Below, piece after piece: positions 1 through 7,845 of a stretch of 7,845 bases of DNA. The notes under the pieces were generated by a model. The model saw only the letters and a program-made list of their open reading frames with translations, ran no database searches and was not told where the DNA came from. Position numbers and translations under genes: made by a program. Position 1 is the stretch's first letter. Every line of letters begins with the position of its first letter. The DNA is from Candidatus Methylomirabilis sp. (GTDB taxonomy: Bacteria; DYJV01): contig DYJV01000055.1 in NCBI GenBank assembly GCA_020722945.1, positions 8,607 to 16,451 on the forward strand, given 5' to 3'.

Positions 1-160
1 ACTGGTTAAAATATCTTCTACCAAAACCTCTCATACCGGCACCTCTCCTAGCTCCCATACCAAATCCTCTTACAGCTCCTCTGCCTCTACCGCACATACC
101 AAATCCACCACCTGTCATAGCTCCTTGTCCCATTGGTCCTGTTCCATCAAATCTTGGCAT
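1..160 (-). CDS. DUF5320-type Gly/Arg-rich small protein (3' end outside window)
   Basis: Seen: a minus-strand frame opens with ATG at 160-158 and runs open through the left edge (53 codons visible). It starts MPRFDGTGPMGQG and continues with a composition dominated by Gly, Arg, Met and Phe, including a single Cys at residue 23. An AAAGGGGG ribosome binding site lies a few bases upstream, which fixes the start. The opening matches the DUF5320 family, whose members start with an M-P-x-x-D-G-T-G-P-M-G signature and are short. It lies 21 bases downstream of the DUF134 gene on the same strand, so it is probably the second gene of that operon. The function of the family is not known to me. Such peptides tend to sit near DUF134 and NifX/NifB-like iron-molybdenum cofactor proteins, so those may lie to the left. 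The Gly/Arg composition would suit a flexible or nucleic-acid/metal-contacting peptide, but that is inference. Confidence 0.8.
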   Translation of the reverse strand, partial: MPRFDGTGPMGQGAMTGGGFGMCGRGRGAVRGFGMGARRGAGMRGFGRRYFNQ

Positions 161-181: not shown

Positions 182-631
182 TTATATCTTATTAAATCTA
201 TGCATACAACATCTACCATGCCCAAAATGTTGTGCCATATTTTTTATTTTCAGACTCCCACACTCTGGGCATTTGGTAATTTCACTTAAATTTATAGATA
301 TTTCAACTATATGTCCACATTCATCACACCTGAAAAGATTTTTCCTGAAATGAATATTCCCACCTTCAATAATAAGCTCTTTACAGTTGATTATAGCATC
401 TGCTATCTTCTTCCTTGCCTGCTCAATCAACCTTGTAAATGTAGGTCTCGAGATCCCCATATGTTTTGAAGCCTCTTCCTGATCAAGCTGCTCATAATCT
501 GAAAGCCTTACTGCTTCAAATTCATCAACATTAAGTATAACTTTTTCAAGGGATCTCATAGGGATTCCAGCAGGTTTAAATATAGCTGCAATAGGTGGTG
601 TCTCAACAAAACGCTCTTTTTTAGGTCTCAT
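182..631 (-). CDS. DUF134 helix-turn-helix protein with C-terminal zinc ribbon
   Basis: A predicted DNA-binding protein of 149 residues. Seen: the N-terminus MRPKKERFV with a basic patch; residues 32-80 carry the DUF134 core (VDEFEAVRLSDYEQLDQEEA, then MGISRPTFTRL), which reads as a helix-turn-helix at about 46-75. The C-terminal part has two CxxC pairs (C102/C105 and C121/C124), a zinc-ribbon pattern, and ends with a His/Cys-rich HFGHGRCCMHRF tail. A longer TTG start (646) is possible, but AAAAGGA lies five bases before the ATG at 631, and known DUF134 proteins begin like MRPRK, so I choose ATG. It heads a minus-strand operon with the DUF5320 peptide. Its promoter region carries two identical 13-bp repeats, consistent with autoregulation (inference). 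Family identity is firm; the ligand or target genes cannot be read from the sequence. The extra zinc ribbon could sense metal or redox state. Confidence 0.9.
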   Translation of the reverse strand: MRPKKERFVETPPIAAIFKPAGIPMRSLEKVILNVDEFEAVRLSDYEQLDQEEASKHMGISRPTFTRLIEQARKKIADAIINCKELIIEGGNIHFRKNLFRCDECGHIVEISINLSEITKCPECGSLKIKNMAQHFGHGRCCMHRFNKI

Positions 632-647
632 CTTTATCCTTTTCAAT

Positions 648-852: not shown

Positions 853-1467
853 ATGAAAATTGATTGTAGAAATCTTGGATGCCCAGAACCTGTAATAAGG
901 AGCAAAAATGCACTACAAAATCTAAAAGACGGTGAGCTTCTCGAGGTTCTCCTCAACTCATTCTCATCAATCTCTAATGTTACCAGATTTGCTCAAAATC
1001 AGGGATTTAATGTATCAGAAAATAAATTGGATAGTGGCGATACAATATTGAAAATTTACAAAGAGGGAGATAATAGCAAAAATTCTTCAGATACTCTTTC
1101 TCCAAATAAAAATATTGAAGATAACAATTTTTCCAACAAAACTATCTTTGTTAAGGATGACAGGATGGGTGAAGGTGATTTTGGTAGAAAGTTGATGAAA
1201 GGTTTCTTTAAAGCATTGAGTGAATACAACAAAATCCCTAAAAATATTATCTTTGTTAACAGAGGGATACTCCTTACAACACAAGACGATAATCTTGATC
1301 TGGTTGAATCACTTAAAATACTTGAAAGTAAAGGCACAAAGATTTATAGCTGTGGGCTCTGTTTTGAAAATTTCAAGATTGATACCAAAAGTTTAAAGAT
1401 AGGGGTGATTGGGAATGCTTTTGATAATGTAAATATGATGATGAATACAGACGTTGTTTCTATCTAA
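853..1467 (+). CDS. yedF: YedF, selenium-metabolism protein (TusA-like + DsrE-like domains)
   Basis: A 204-residue, probably cytoplasmic protein of the YedF family that accompanies selD in many selenium-using bacteria. Seen: residues 1-70 form a TusA/SirA-like domain with the hallmark CPEP motif (C10-P-E-P) in NLGCPEPVIRSK. A Ser/Asn-rich linker (about 71-96) leads to a second domain with DRMGEGDFGRKLMKGFF (103-119) and a conserved-looking SCGLC motif (C167, C170) near the end, typical of the DsrE/F-like half of YedF. The ATG follows AGGGGG by seven bases. The stop is 12 bases before the selD ATG, so the two are surely co-transcribed. TusA-type CPxP cysteines carry persulfide sulfur in related proteins. 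By analogy YedF may carry or guard reactive selenium for SelD, but its exact reaction is not established. Alternatives are unlikely given the two-domain layout and the neighbour. Confidence 0.9.
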   Translation: MKIDCRNLGCPEPVIRSKNALQNLKDGELLEVLLNSFSSISNVTRFAQNQGFNVSENKLDSGDTILKIYKEGDNSKNSSDTLSPNKNIEDNNFSNKTIFVKDDRMGEGDFGRKLMKGFFKALSEYNKIPKNIIFVNRGILLTTQDDNLDLVESLKILESKGTKIYSCGLCFENFKIDTKSLKIGVIGNAFDNVNMMMNTDVVSI

Positions 1468-1479
1468 AAAGGGGGAAGT

Positions 1480-2520
1480 ATGATTGGCAATAGTGCAAAA
1501 CTTACAAAATTTGTAAGAGCGGCAGGGTGAGCAGGGAAGCTTGCTCCGGGCGAGTTGTCTGAATCTGTATGCTGTTTGTCTTCCCACAATAAAAATGTGA
1601 TCGTATCATTTGAAGGTAACGAAGATGCTGGAGTATTCAAGATCAATGACAACCTTGCAATTGTCCAGACTGTTGATTTTATCACCCCTGTTGTTGATAA
1701 TCCTTACATATATGGGCAGATTGCTGCGGCAAATTCGCTTAGTGATGTCTTTGCTATGGGTGGAGAGGTAAAAACCGCTCTAAACCTTATAGGATTTGAT
1801 TCTGTTCACCACTCAAAGGAAGTTTTAACCGAAATTTTACAGGGTGGTGAGAGTAAAGTGACCGAATGTAACGGTGTTATCTTGGGTGGTCATACAATAG
1901 AGACTATCGAAATGTTGTATGGTCTGAGTGTTACAGGATTTGTTCACCCTTCAAGAGTTTTGAGAAATAATAGTGTCCGAGAGGGTGATATTTTGATAAT
2001 TACAAAACCTATCGGAGTGGGGATTCTCTCCACAGGAGTTAAAGCTGACCTTGTTGACGATAAGGTAATCAACGAAATGGTCAAGTATATGTCTATGCTC
2101 AATTACAAAGCTTCAGTTGTCGCAAACCAATTTGACATTTCAGCTTGCACAGATGTTACTGGGTTTGGTCTTGCTGCACATAGCTACGAAATGACTCATC
2201 ACAAATTCACAATAGAGATAGAGTTTGATAAAATTCCAATACTTAAAGAGGCTCTTTATCAGGCTTCAATGGGTATTATCCCGGGTGGAGCCTACTCAAA
2301 CCAAAATTTTATGAAAGATAAAATATCTATAAAGAAAAAATTAACCTTTGAAGAGGAGATACTCCTTTTTGATCCACAAACTTCTGGTGGCCTCCTACTA
2401 ACTGTAAACGAAAAAGATGCAAACAAATTTATTACCCAGTTGATAGATGAAGGGGTAGAGAGTGCAGTTGCAATAGGATATGTAAAAAAATTTGATGAAA
2501 ATTTTATAAAAATAGTATAA
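1480..2520 (+). CDS. selD: Selenophosphate synthetase SelD, selenocysteine-containing (TGA 1528-1530 = Sec17)
   Basis: SelD makes selenophosphate from selenide and ATP (EC 2.7.9.3), the selenium donor for selenocysteine and selenouridine tRNA. The frame opens with ATG at 1480 after GGGGGAAG and is interrupted by one TGA (1528-1530). Read as selenocysteine, it gives 346 residues, the normal family length. The N-terminus runs KFVRAAG-U-AGKL, so U17 and K20 fall exactly where E. coli SelD has its essential Cys17 and Lys20. Further matches are the Mg/ATP-binding aspartates D49, D66 and D89 (NEDAGVF, TVDFITPVVDNP, LSDVFAMGG), GGHTIE, TDVTGFGL and the C-terminal DPQTSGGLLL. A start at TTG 1555, which ignores the TGA, would remove the catalytic residues and lacks a ribosome binding site. 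The gene follows yedF by 12 bases. A Sec residue here implies that SelA, SelB and tRNA-Sec are encoded elsewhere and that SelD depends on its own product. Confidence 0.95.
1528..1561 (+). promoter_or_regulatory. Putative bacterial SECIS element of selD
   Basis: Directly after the TGA, the mRNA can fold with a lower stem 1532-1535/1558-1561 (C-G, A-U, G-C, G-U), an internal loop, and an upper stem 1543-1546/1552-1555 (G-U, C-G, U-A, C-G). The apical loop is CGGGC (1547-1551). The loop begins 16 bases after the TGA and has G at its second position, both in line with the described bacterial SECIS pattern recognised by SelB. The stem is short, and a competing pairing of 1529-1532 with 1543-1546 exists, so the exact fold is uncertain. 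Confidence 0.6.
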
Positions 2521-2521
2521 A

Positions 2522-2569
2522 GCTCTTTGAAATACCAAATTACGGAGTCAATATGATCAGCCAAAGAGC
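2522..2569 (+). repeat. 8-bp inverted repeat enclosing the aminotransferase ribosome binding site and start
   Basis: GCTCTTTG (2522-2529) is perfectly complementary to CAAAGAGC (2562-2569). The 32-base loop between them holds the ACGGAG ribosome binding site (2542-2547) and the ATG (2553-2555). In the mRNA this could form a hairpin that presents or limits the start region. It has no T-tract, so it is not an intrinsic terminator. The function is inferred, and chance is possible. Confidence 0.35.
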
Positions 2570-3698
2570 CTCCAACATTGCCCCATTTTATGCTATGGAG
2601 ATATTAGAAGAAGCTCATCTTCTTGAAAAAGAAGGGAAAAATATCATTCATCTTGAGATTGGAGAACCTGATTTTGCTACACCATCCAAGATTTCTGACA
2701 AAGCAGCAGAGGAGCTTAAAAAGGGTAACACACATTACACACACAGTCTCGGGACAGTAGAGTTACGAGAAGCTATTGCAGAATTTTATTACAACAAATA
2801 TAAAGTCAAAGTTGATCCAGATAGAATACTTATCACCAATGGCACATCCCCATGCTTCTTCCTTATATTTTCAGCACTATTAGAGTCAGGGGATAAAGTA
2901 ATAATGTCAAACCCCTCTTACCCCTGTTACAAAAACATAATACAGTTTTTGGGGGGCACTCCTCATTATATAAATGTTTTTGAAGAGTCTAATTTTAGAC
3001 TACCTATTGATGAACTTAAAAGACATCTTACCCCAACAATCAAAGCCCTGCTTATTAACTCTCCATCCAATCCTACAGGCACAATATTAGACAAGAAAAA
3101 TCTTCAAGAGATATCTACACTCGGTAAATTAATTATATCTGATGAAATTTACCATGGTCTTACCTATGATGGTGATGAGCATACTATTTTAGAATTTGAT
3201 AGTAATGCAGTAGTTTTAAATGGATTCTCCAAATTATACGCAATGACAGGTTGGAGACTTGGGTTTATGATTGTTCCACAATACCTTATAAGACCTATCC
3301 AGAAAATACAGCAGAATTTCTTTATATCTGCTAATTCATTCGTGCAGGCTGCTGGGGTGGTTGCACTAAAAGATGTTGATGAGGATATAGAGAAAATGAA
3401 GCAAACCTACAATACGAGAAGATTGCTTATGCTCAAGAGGTTAAAAAAAATTGGGTTTGAGATAAAATCAGATCCTGTAGGTGCATTCTACATCTTTGTA
3501 AATATCAAAAATTACTCCAACAACTCACTTGAATTTGCAAAAAACATACTCCATAAAGCCAATGTCGGTGTTACTCCCGGTATAGACTTTGGAAGCAATG
3601 GTGAAGGTTTTTTAAGATTCTCCTATGCTAATTCGATTGATAATATCAATATTGCAATGGACAGATTAGAGGAATTTTTTAGTAAAATAGATAATTAA
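2553..3698 (+). CDS. PLP-dependent class I/II aminotransferase (aspartate-aminotransferase-like)
   Basis: A cytoplasmic fold-type I aminotransferase of 381 residues, the usual length of the AspC-like (I-gamma) group. Seen: the N-terminal IGEPDF (36-41); SPSNPTG (170-176) with the pyridine-ring-contacting N173; SDEIY (196-200) with D197 and Y200; GFSKLYAMTGWRLG (224-237) with K227 as the Schiff-base lysine and R235 as phosphate ligand; and FLRFSY with R355, which binds the substrate carboxylate. All catalytic positions are intact, so it should transfer amino groups between an amino acid and a 2-oxo acid. The side-chain specificity cannot be read; aspartate, alanine or aromatic substrates are all possible. 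The ATG follows ACGGAG by five bases, 32 bases after selD. An 8-bp inverted repeat encloses the start. The next gene begins immediately after its stop codon. It is not a selenocysteine lyase: the NifS/SufS motifs are absent. Confidence 0.9.
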   Translation: MISQRASNIAPFYAMEILEEAHLLEKEGKNIIHLEIGEPDFATPSKISDKAAEELKKGNTHYTHSLGTVELREAIAEFYYNKYKVKVDPDRILITNGTSPCFFLIFSALLESGDKVIMSNPSYPCYKNIIQFLGGTPHYINVFEESNFRLPIDELKRHLTPTIKALLINSPSNPTGTILDKKNLQEISTLGKLIISDEIYHGLTYDGDEHTILEFDSNAVVLNGFSKLYAMTGWRLGFMIVPQYLIRPIQKIQQNFFISANSFVQAAGVVALKDVDEDIEKMKQTYNTRRLLMLKRLKKIGFEIKSDPVGAFYIFVNIKNYSNNSLEFAKNILHKANVGVTPGIDFGSNGEGFLRFSYANSIDNINIAMDRLEEFFSKIDN

Positions 3699-4835
3699 AT
3701 GCCAAAATTTCTTAAAGTAAAAGGTTTCTTTGACCCGCAATTAGGGGAAATGATATATAATCCTATAATAAAATGGGATGATGATTTATCAATCCACATT
3801 CTAACGACTCCTCTACCACCCTCTGTAAAAATCAAACAAATCAAAGGTTACATTACCACACCATTTTTTGATCTCCACACACATCTTTTCCTGACAGGCT
3901 CATCTGAAATATCTGAGAGAGAAAAAGTGTTAAAAGAAGATAAATTTACTACTGAAAATCGGATAGAGGAGAATATCGAAAACTATAAAAAATATGGGAT
4001 TATTGGAGTTAGGGATGCTGGGGATAATCTTTTTGCAGCTCTTGATATGAGTAAAAAAATATCTGATTTTACAATTATCCCATCTGGTAAAGCTATCTTT
4101 AAAAAAGGTAGATATGGTAGTTTTATAGGTGAGCCATTTACTGATAAAAAAAGTTTGATTGCCATACTAAATTCATTAAATAGTAAAGGTGCACAAGTTC
4201 TCAAAATAATAAATTCAGGGATTAATTCTGTTGATAAATTTGGCAATCAAACCACTTCACAATTTACTTATGATGAATTTAAATTACTATCAGATTTCGC
4301 AAAAAATAATGATTTAAAAGTAATGGTTCATGCAAATGGAGAAGAAGCTATAAAAATGGCTGCTTCTTTTGGAGTTACTTCTATTGAACACGGTTTTTTT
4401 ATGGGAGAAGATAATATCAAGTTGATGATAGACAACAATGTTTCACTTATTCCAACTTTTGCAGCAATGTTTAATCTGATTTACAATAAAGCCTTTACCA
4501 ACAAACAGAAAGAGGTAATAAAAAAAACTACTGACCACCATATTGATGAAGTTAGGCAATTTTTAGAACTTGGTGGTAGATTAAATCTTGGGACAGATGC
4601 TGGCTCTTTTGGAATGATGCATGGTGAATCAATATTTGATGAGATTAAATTTTTTCATAAATCAATTGGCTTATCATTTGAAGAGATATTAAAAATTGTA
4701 TCTTACGATAACCTTCTGCTAGCTGGTGTAACTATCAAAAGATACCCATTTCTTATATTTATGGATCAGTTTAATTATCAATCTCTAAGTAGCAGTAATA
4801 GCAAAACTATACAGTATACAGAGTGTGAAAATTGA
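3699..4835 (+). CDS. Metal-dependent amidohydrolase (imidazolonepropionase/prolidase-like superfamily member)
   Basis: A 378-residue TIM-barrel amidohydrolase. Seen: a short N-terminal strand-rich part (about 1-52), then the metal-binding DLHTH (H60, H62), a candidate carboxylated lysine in QVLKII (K169), H211 in VMVHANG, H231 in SIEHGF and D300 in LGTDAG. This is the full HxH-Lys-His-His-Asp set of a binuclear site, so the enzyme is likely active on a C-N (amide, cyclic amide or peptide) bond; the substrate is unknown. The C-terminus is unusual. After LAGVTIKRYPFLIFMD the sequence becomes polar and lacks the G-x-I-x-x-G-x-x-A-D-L-V stretch that normally closes the small beta-sandwich domain. 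The ATG abuts the aminotransferase stop, with only a weak upstream GAGG, so translation is probably coupled. The TGA stop overlaps the TTG start of the next gene. The pairing with an aminotransferase hints at amino-acid or peptide breakdown (inference). Confidence 0.85.
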   Translation: MPKFLKVKGFFDPQLGEMIYNPIIKWDDDLSIHILTTPLPPSVKIKQIKGYITTPFFDLHTHLFLTGSSEISEREKVLKEDKFTTENRIEENIENYKKYGIIGVRDAGDNLFAALDMSKKISDFTIIPSGKAIFKKGRYGSFIGEPFTDKKSLIAILNSLNSKGAQVLKIINSGINSVDKFGNQTTSQFTYDEFKLLSDFAKNNDLKVMVHANGEEAIKMAASFGVTSIEHGFFMGEDNIKLMIDNNVSLIPTFAAMFNLIYNKAFTNKQKEVIKKTTDHHIDEVRQFLELGGRLNLGTDAGSFGMMHGESIFDEIKFFHKSIGLSFEEILKIVSYDNLLLAGVTIKRYPFLIFMDQFNYQSLSSSNSKTIQYTECEN

Positions 4836-5203
4836 TTAAGTTAAAGATTTTTGACTACATAATTATATTTACTGTAATAATTTTAATCATTTTATCTTAC
4901 TTATACTTAAAAAATAACTTTTCACCAGACAATATTGAGATAATTACCACTGATAAAAGGTTGCATTTTTCTTTAAAAAAAGATATTGTAATCACAATAA
5001 AGGGAGCTATAGGTGAAATGAGAGTTGAGATAAAAAATATGAAATTACGAGTTATTGAATCTTCATGCCCAAATAAAATTTGCATTAAAAGCGGCTGGAT
5101 ATCTAAAAATGGTGAGCATATTGCTTGTATCCCCAACAAAGTCTTAATAACCTTAACTTCTTCAAACAAAAATCTAAAAGATTACGATTTTATAGTAGAG
5201 TAA
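4832..5203 (+). CDS. Membrane-anchored NusG domain II-containing protein
   Basis: A 123-residue protein. Seen: one hydrophobic segment (about residues 8-26, FDYIIIFTVIILIILSYLYL) after a short basic start, then a soluble domain with SSCPNKICIKSGWI (77-90) and IACIPNKVLI (97-106), which is the pattern of the NusG domain II family of small envelope proteins. Cysteines C79, C84 and C99 are conserved-looking. No lipobox is present, so an uncleaved N-terminal anchor with the domain outside the cytoplasm is likely. The start codon is TTG, overlapping the preceding TGA as TTGA. No in-frame ATG or GTG lies upstream, because a TGA at 4826 blocks that frame, and the next gene starts 16 bases after its stop. 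The shared name with transcription factor NusG reflects a fold only; this protein is not expected to bind RNA polymerase. Its role is unknown. In other genomes such genes occur near redox and membrane-bound electron-transfer functions. Confidence 0.8.
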   Translation: MIKLKIFDYIIIFTVIILIILSYLYLKNNFSPDNIEIITTDKRLHFSLKKDIVITIKGAIGEMRVEIKNMKLRVIESSCPNKICIKSGWISKNGEHIACIPNKVLITLTSSNKNLKDYDFIVE

Positions 5204-5219
5204 AAAGTAGAGGGGTAAA

Positions 5220-5495
5220 ATGTTTGGAATAGGCTTTAATGAACTTATAATTATACTTGTTGTTGCTCTTATCGTTATAGGACCAAAGAAATTACCCGAG
5301 ATAGCAAAAACTCTCGGCAAAGGTTATAGAGAGTTCAAAAATGCTTTTGATGATGTCAAAAACGAAATTAATCTCGATATGTCCGATGATAAAGAGTATA
5401 CCAAAATTAAAGTAGTCGGCAAAGACAACAAAAAGGATGAAAACTCTAAAAAATCAAATATAGAAGAGGAGATAAAAACATCTAAAAATGAGTGA
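5220..5495 (+). CDS. tatA: Twin-arginine translocase subunit TatA/TatB family
   Basis: A small pore-forming or receptor subunit of the Tat system, which exports folded proteins with a twin-arginine signal. It has 91 residues. Seen: [20 protein letters not shown] forms the transmembrane helix (1-20), a GPKKLPE hinge follows (21-27), then the amphipathic helix [16 protein letters not shown] (28-43) and a charged Lys/Glu/Asp-rich tail. The polar residue at position 8 is Glu and the hinge is G-P-x-x-L-P, both typical of TatB, while the overall size and position before tatC fit TatA. In organisms with one such gene the protein often serves both roles, so I name it TatA with that caveat. AGAGGGG lies just upstream of the ATG. 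The stop overlaps the tatC start by eight bases (ATGAGTGA). Confidence 0.92.
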
Positions 5496-6330
5496 TTTAT
5501 ACTCTTCTGACAATCAGAAAAATAGCGACAATCTCATTGAAGAGAGTCATGACACTTCACCCTCTGATCCTTCAGAGGATAATAAAATGGAATTTAGTGA
5601 TCATTTAGCAGAGTTAAGGCAGAGGCTCATCAAAATATCTATTGCTGTTTTTATAGGTTTTGGGGGGTGTTATTACTTTGCAAAAGAGCTTTTCTACTAC
5701 TTTACACTACCACTTCTGAAAGTTTTACCAGAAGGGAATACACTTATATTTACCTCTCTACCTGAAGGGTTTTTTACATATCTCAAAATTTCATTCTTTG
5801 CAGGGTTTATTCTCGTATCACCCTATATATTTTATCAGCTATGGAAGTTTATCTCACCCGGGTTGTATCCAAAAGAGAGAAAGTATGTCCTACCCTTTGT
5901 TGCTGCGTCAACAATTTTTTTCGTTATGGGTGTAAGTTTTGCATATTTTATAGTTTTCCCTTTCGGATTTGAATTTTTCCTAAGTTTCCAGAATGACTAT
6001 ATAAAAGCTCTTCCGACTCTTCAGCAATACCTAAAATTTGCATTACAGCTACTTTTTGCGTTTGGTCTAATATTTGAGATGCCTGTGATATTCTATTTTC
6101 TTGCCAAAATTAAACTTATAAATTCTAATATACTTACCAAAAATAGACGATACACAGTGGTAATCATCTTTATTGTCGCAGCAATACTTACTCCCCCTGA
6201 TGTATTTACACAATTTTTAATGGCAATACCCCTTCTCTTACTTTACGAATTAAGTATATTAATAGTAAAAAGAGTGGAGAAATCCCAAAAAGTAGCTGAA
6301 GAGGCTAAAGATAAAGATGAAGCAGTATGA
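5488..6330 (+). CDS. tatC: Twin-arginine translocase subunit TatC
   Basis: The six-helix membrane receptor for twin-arginine signal peptides, 280 residues from the first ATG. Seen: the signature [12 protein letters not shown] (36-47) just before the first membrane helix, then [39 protein letters not shown] in pieces (88-125), with P112 and the FxxPGL motif, E129-R130 after GLYPK, FEMP (196-199) and LTPPDV (234-239). All are standard TatC landmarks. The start is ambiguous. The ATG at 5488 overlaps tatA but has its GAGGAG 16 bases away, and it yields a 33-residue acidic, Ser/Asp-rich extension. An internal ATG at 5587 (M34) has AGAGGA at an ideal seven-base spacing and gives the usual TatC N-terminus. 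The C-terminal tail (264-280) is highly charged. The stop overlaps the next gene by 14 bases. Confidence 0.95.
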
Positions 6331-7198
6331 TTTTCCACCTTACAGACCTCCAAATGAAGCAGATAGCTGCCTTATAAGATTTACAAGGGGATGTCCATGG
6401 AATAAGTGCCAATTCTGTATGATGTATAAAAGGGTAAAATTTGAAATACGGGGTGTTGACGAAATATTAGAAGATATCCAAAATGCTCCCTCCATCTTTG
6501 GCAGAGATATAAAAAGTGTTTTTATAGGGGATTCAGATTCTCTCTTGATGAAAACAGATACTCTTGTCACTCTTCTAAAAAAAATAAGAGAAGTTTTCCC
6601 CAATTTAGATAGAGTTACAAGTTATGCAAGAATCAAAACTCTCAAAGCAAAAGGTCAAGATAATCTCAAAAAACTTTTTGACGCTGGTCTGACAAGGGTC
6701 CATATAGGTCTTGAATCTGGCAGTGATAAGGTGCTCGAGCTTATAAACAAAGGCTCAAAAGCTAAACATTTTATACAAACAGCACCAATGATTCACAAAT
6801 CAGGACTACAGTTTAGCCTCTATGTTCTTCTTGCAGTAGGAGGAAAAGAGTATTCCCATATTCACTCATCAGAAACAGCAGAGGTAATAAACCAATCAAA
6901 TCCTGATTTTGTAAGATTCCGAACCATTATCCCTATCCCCGGAAGTGGTATAGATAAGATGTTTACTTCTGGTGAGCTTACATATCTCTCTGATAAAGAT
7001 ATTATAGCAGAACAATTAAATATAATACGAAATATTCAAGCCAAAACCTATATCGCCAATGACCATATTTCAAACCTTGTATCGATTGAGGGGGAGATTC
7101 CCCAAAAAAAAGATTACTTTCTAAATATCCTTCAAAAAGCTTACGATTCTTTTGGTGATAAGAGCAGAGATAAAGAGAAACTTTTAAGATACCTTTAA
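6317..7198 (+). CDS. Radical SAM protein with CX4CX2C cluster motif
   Basis: An iron-sulfur/S-adenosylmethionine enzyme of 293 residues, probably cytoplasmic. Seen: RFTRGCPWNKCQFCMMYK (21-38), where C26, C31 and C34 would bind a [4Fe-4S] cluster. The spacing is CX4CX2C rather than the common CX3CX2C. Further landmarks are VFIGDSDSLLM (68-78), at the place of the SAM-binding GGE-like strand, and HIGLESGSDKVLELINKG (129-146), a motif of the COG1032/Elp3-like branch. No B12-binding domain precedes it, and no extra cluster motif or TRAM domain follows. The protein is therefore a compact single-domain form, and its substrate is unknown. Proteins with this TRGCPWNxCxFC opening are found across anaerobes, generally unannotated. 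The ATG lies 12 bases after GAAGAGG and overlaps tatC by 14 bases, so it belongs to the same transcript. It ends the gene cluster; a T-run follows the stop. Confidence 0.88.
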   Translation: MKQYDFPPYRPPNEADSCLIRFTRGCPWNKCQFCMMYKRVKFEIRGVDEILEDIQNAPSIFGRDIKSVFIGDSDSLLMKTDTLVTLLKKIREVFPNLDRVTSYARIKTLKAKGQDNLKKLFDAGLTRVHIGLESGSDKVLELINKGSKAKHFIQTAPMIHKSGLQFSLYVLLAVGGKEYSHIHSSETAEVINQSNPDFVRFRTIIPIPGSGIDKMFTSGELTYLSDKDIIAEQLNIIRNIQAKTYIANDHISNLVSIEGEIPQKKDYFLNILQKAYDSFGDKSRDKEKLLRYL

Positions 7199-7658: not shown

Positions 7659-7845
7659 ATGAAACTAAAAACTCTTCCGATAGGTCAATCTTCATTTGAA
7701 AGAATTATTAAAGAAAATAAAATCTATGTTGACAAAACAAGGCTTCTTTACAATCTGATAACAGAAGGAGAGTTTTACTTCCTCTCCCGCCCCAGACGAT
7801 TTGGCAAATCTTTACTTGTATCCACACTCAAAAATATCTTTCTTG
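7659..7845 (+). CDS. AAA-ATPase-like protein of the PD-(D/E)XK nuclease (DUF1703) family, 5' part
   Basis: Only the first 62 codons lie in the window; the frame is open at the right edge. Seen: LPIGQSSFERIIKENKIYVDKTRLLYNLI in pieces (6-34), then FYFLSRPRRFGKSLLVSTL (39-57). The I-x-x-x-x-x-Y-V-D-K-T and F-L-S-R-P-R-R-F-G-K-S-L blocks are diagnostic of the AAA-ATPase-like family (PF09820), which usually continues for 400-500 further residues and ends in a PD-(D/E)XK nuclease-like domain. R44-P-R-R-F-G-K50-S51 is the Walker A region. These genes are commonly multicopy and patchily distributed; their role is not established, with mobility, defence or DNA processing all proposed as possibilities. 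No Shine-Dalgarno sequence precedes the ATG (TCAACTTT is there instead), and a promoter ends six bases upstream, so translation may be leaderless. Whether the rest of the gene is intact cannot be seen. Confidence 0.85.
   Translation, partial: MKLKTLPIGQSSFERIIKENKIYVDKTRLLYNLITEGEFYFLSRPRRFGKSLLVSTLKNIFL

Follow-up and report, generated by a model that had tools for sequence, protein, structure and literature searches.

The selD gene in the window, by which we mean the whole 7,845-nucleotide stretch of Candidatus Methylomirabilis sp. DNA analysed here, almost certainly encodes a normal bacterial selenophosphate synthetase with selenocysteine (Sec) at its active site, as judged from sequence evidence of several kinds, namely the gene itself, the position of an in-frame TGA codon, the selenium machinery of the genome, the conservation of the codon and the covariation of a hairpin that follows it. 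The features on which this reading rests are collected in Table 1, together with the neighbouring genes.

Table 1. Features of the window (positions counted from its first nucleotide).
Feature	Positions	Strand	Remarks
DUF5320 Gly/Met-rich protein	1-160	-	cut by the left end of the window
DUF134 DNA-binding/zinc-ribbon protein	182-646	-	adjoins the DUF5320 gene
yedF, selenium-metabolism protein	853-1467	+	TusA-like and DsrE-like domains; immediately precedes selD
Putative ribosome-binding stretch	1466-1479	+	G-rich, aaaaagggggaagt; just upstream of ATG 1480; identified by eye
selD, selenophosphate synthetase (selenide, water dikinase)	1480-2520	+	346 aa, predicted Sec at residue 17, start ATG 1480
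TGA predicted to be read as Sec	1528-1530	+	catalytic position (E. coli Cys17), from alignment; same codon TGA in 28 other SelD genes
Putative bSECIS apical hairpin, register as conserved in relatives	1543-1555	+	stem 1543-1546/1552-1555, loop CGGGC 1547-1551; pairs covary among the 29 TGA forms
PLP aminotransferase, amidohydrolase, NusG domain II protein, TatA/B, TatC, radical SAM protein	2553-7198	+	downstream run, closely spaced
AAA-ATPase_like protein, start (PF09820)	7659-7844	+	cut by the right end of the window

The initial annotation had proposed that the TGA lies in frame with ATG 1480 and with the remainder of selD, that it falls together with Lys20 on the essential Cys17 and Lys20 of the E. 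coli enzyme, and that a mechanical annotation would lose the first 25 residues, and our analysis bears out each of these points. Indeed, apart from the TGA the frame is intact over 346 codons down to the stop codon at 2518-2520, and the protein obtained by reading through it scores 340.3 bits against TIGR00476 over residues 7-313 (equivalog cut-off 125) and comprises the Pfam domains AIRS and AIRS_C. Alignment with E. coli SelD (PDB 3u0o) places Sec17 and Lys20 on Cys17 and Lys20, in agreement with the requirement of the family for an active-site Cys or Sec and a lysine three residues further on (here U17 and K20). A plain open reading frame call starts at TTG 1555, which would correspond to a situation in which the UGA does act as a stop codon and the SelD protein has 321 residues. 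This is extremely improbable, considering that such a protein would be devoid of residue 17 and Lys20, that the peptide encoded upstream of TTG 1555 is conserved with Cys-containing SelD proteins (the N-terminal peptide MIGNSAKLTKFVRAAG aligns with those of Campylobacterota), and that by eye no clear ribosome-binding stretch precedes position 1555. The annotation is thus corrected: SelD includes the first 25 residues, and with them the active site. No other candidate for TGA readthrough was found elsewhere in the window.

The TGA codon is also conserved. Matches to SelD were obtained in 38 of 60 genomes (E ≤ 0.001), and most of the strong ones contain exactly one internal TGA. The codon for residue 17 is TGA in 29 of the fetched genes, including that of the window, and TGC or TGT in 34 homologues; the latter are nearly all from Campylobacterota, and the 28 other TGA-containing genes belong to many families and mostly to distant genomes. 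The other genome of the same phylum among those compared (L062) likewise has a TGA in its SelD gene. Some particular cases were noted within this set. The SelD gene L065 has TGA at the aligned codon and another stop codon 14 codons upstream, so that fewer residues are encoded ahead of Sec, from a different start. Five genomes (G046, G031, G022, G032 and G033) each yielded at least two strong SelD matches, and in G046 and G031 a TGA-containing form is paired with a form whose open frame is long (about 745 aa) and free of stops.

Absence of selA, selB and selC from the genome had been named beforehand as one of the observations that would speak against a Sec-containing SelD, and this is not the case in the assembly, a 2.51 Mb draft in 184 contigs (98.14% complete, 5.79% contamination). 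One tRNA-Sec lies above the Rfam cut-off (72.8 bits), with the anticodon TCA (UCA) assigned by ARAGORN, and both SelA (595.8 bits) and a full-length SelB (350.9 bits) are encoded. The same genome encodes a selenouridine synthase and a formate dehydrogenase alpha subunit (FdhA; L081, G000:C110:24079-26085, minus strand) whose gene has a single in-frame TGA and, downstream of this codon, a hairpin whose loop reads GGUCU; FdhA is predicted to be a second selenoprotein of the genome. A single copy of SelD was found, which means that in this draft genome the predicted Sec enzyme has no Cys back-up. Given the draft status and the level of contamination, it could be argued that the TGA was introduced by a sequencing error, or that selD is a decaying pseudogene. 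The likelihood of this is negligible: the frame is otherwise intact over its 346 codons, the Sec machinery is complete, and 28 other SelD genes have TGA at the very same codon. In fact, this conservation rules out a sequencing error, and resequencing is not expected to give TGC or TGT.

As to the signal for Sec insertion, the initial annotation had placed a hairpin with a G-containing loop at a bSECIS-like distance from the TGA; a covarying hairpin does follow the codon, the part in need of refinement being the register, which is now set to 1543-1555. In the window the pairs are G-U, C-G, U-A and C-G, and the fifth position is a C-C opposition, hence the loop CGGGC. Counting from the U of UGA the element spans nt 16-28, and the stem tested consists of nt 16-20 with nt 24-28. 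RNAalifold gave no consensus structure, and base pairs were therefore counted on a specified structure instead, using a gap-free alignment of the 29 TGA forms. Pairing is observed in 77.9% of the cells (shuffled mean 68.4%), in 15 cells both partners are changed, and the covariation score of 0.324 (shuffled mean 0.173) was reached by none of 500 shuffles, it being noted that the shuffles leave sequence relatedness in and that this region of SelD is conserved as protein as well. The register outscores every slid register on covariation. The four core pairs are formed in 80% of the cells in the TGA forms against 23% in the Cys forms, which are mostly close kin of one another, and the nearest Cys forms, those of Campylobacterota, lack the hairpin.

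The published limits for bSECIS elements comprise a loop of 3-9 nt, a stem of 4-16 bp, a G at the first or second loop position, a spacing of 16-37 nt and a minimum free energy (MFE) at or below -7.5 kcal/mol (PMC13188914). The hairpin of the window lies within the geometric limits, with a loop of 5 nt having G as its second base, a stem of 4 bp including one G-U pair and a spacing of 16 nt, although stem length and spacing (loop start 16 nt after the UGA) are both at the lowest allowed value. The minimal 4-bp unit amounts to -2.4 kcal/mol and an extended fold containing it to -9.0 kcal/mol, whereas competing folds are lower, at -11.9 and -14.9 kcal/mol. The bases are paired differently in the lowest-energy folds of the segment, and one of these pairings extends into the UGA. 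The MFE structures obtained by folding this sequence alone were considered as the SECIS element and rejected, one of them because it pairs bases of the UGA, the others because their registers are not conserved in the relatives. Since the lowest-energy folds differ from it, the hairpin of the window is in itself a modest example of a putative bSECIS element, and its support is drawn from the relatives. An Rfam scan of the window gave no match; RF00031 gave none in the genome nor in any of 14 control genomes, and this silence in all controls makes the result uninformative.

The weakness of the local hairpin could suggest that the UGA is read by a near-cognate tRNA, with insertion of an amino acid other than Sec. 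We attribute practically no probability to this, as tRNA-Sec, SelA and SelB are all encoded in the genome and the hairpin is kept in the TGA forms only. In the Sec reading, SelB would bind the hairpin that closely follows the UGA and bring Sec-tRNA(Sec) to codon 17 during translation of selD, and the full-length SelD, with a selenolate in its active site, would produce selenophosphate from selenide and ATP. SelA would then use selenophosphate in the formation of Sec-tRNA(Sec), serving both SelD itself and formate dehydrogenase, and the selenouridine synthase would be a further consumer of the selenophosphate made by SelD. The initial annotation had stressed the circular dependence of SelD on its own product: that SelD would need this product holds, but the same is true of all organisms that have only a Sec-containing SelD, and the circularity is thus general. 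A cell devoid of SelD might start up from inherited SelD, or through low-level insertion of another residue. One may also conceive that the stabler alternative hairpins, which overlap both the UGA and the conserved hairpin, act as a switch, by which translation of selD would sense the supply of charged tRNA-Sec; this is very unlikely, and were it true, it would make of SelD and its own product a self-regulating loop.

The genes around selD were analysed as well. YedF scores 175.5 bits against TIGR03527 (cut-off 110) and comprises the Pfam domains PF01206 and PF02635; the two genes are also adjacent in L022, L026, L046 and L057, a link between YedF and SelD has been published (PMC5322559), and yedF and selD are probably co-transcribed. 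The DUF5320 and DUF134 genes read away from this pair. At the other end of the window, the AAA-ATPase_like gene is preceded by about 450 bases without a listed open reading frame of at least 60 aa.

Many bacteria are already well known to have a Sec-containing SelD, among them Aquifex aeolicus and Haemophilus influenzae, and the initial annotation had recognized that the kind is known. In a survey of reference prokaryotic genomes, 19% of the detected SelD genes encode Sec, always at the same position (PMC4561486), and another paper lists 38 such genes, including those of Clostridium difficile and Geobacter (PMC1794560). The SelD of the window shares with these Sec forms the active-site Sec codon, the downstream hairpin and the presence of the Sec machinery in the genome, and differs in sequence divergence only (34-51% identity to the fetched Sec forms). 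E. coli SelD belongs to the same family and has Cys in place of Sec. The closest SelD proteins, both in sequence (54-58% identity) and in the tree, are the Cys forms of Campylobacterota (Sulfuricurvum and relatives); yedF immediately precedes selD in three of them, codon 17 specifies Cys, and the hairpin is lacking. In a tree of 39 rows the SelD of the window is sister to these Cys forms (100/97), and the Sec form L051 is next outside (100/98). The simplest reading is a change from Sec to Cys in the campylobacterotal line, with the reservation that sampling is narrow and that transfer between phyla is possible. This topology fits, rather than proves, the published direction of change, from Sec to Cys, with no changes from Cys to Sec found (PMC1794560). 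The SelD described here is thus one more instance of a known family, from a phylum that is sparsely sampled.
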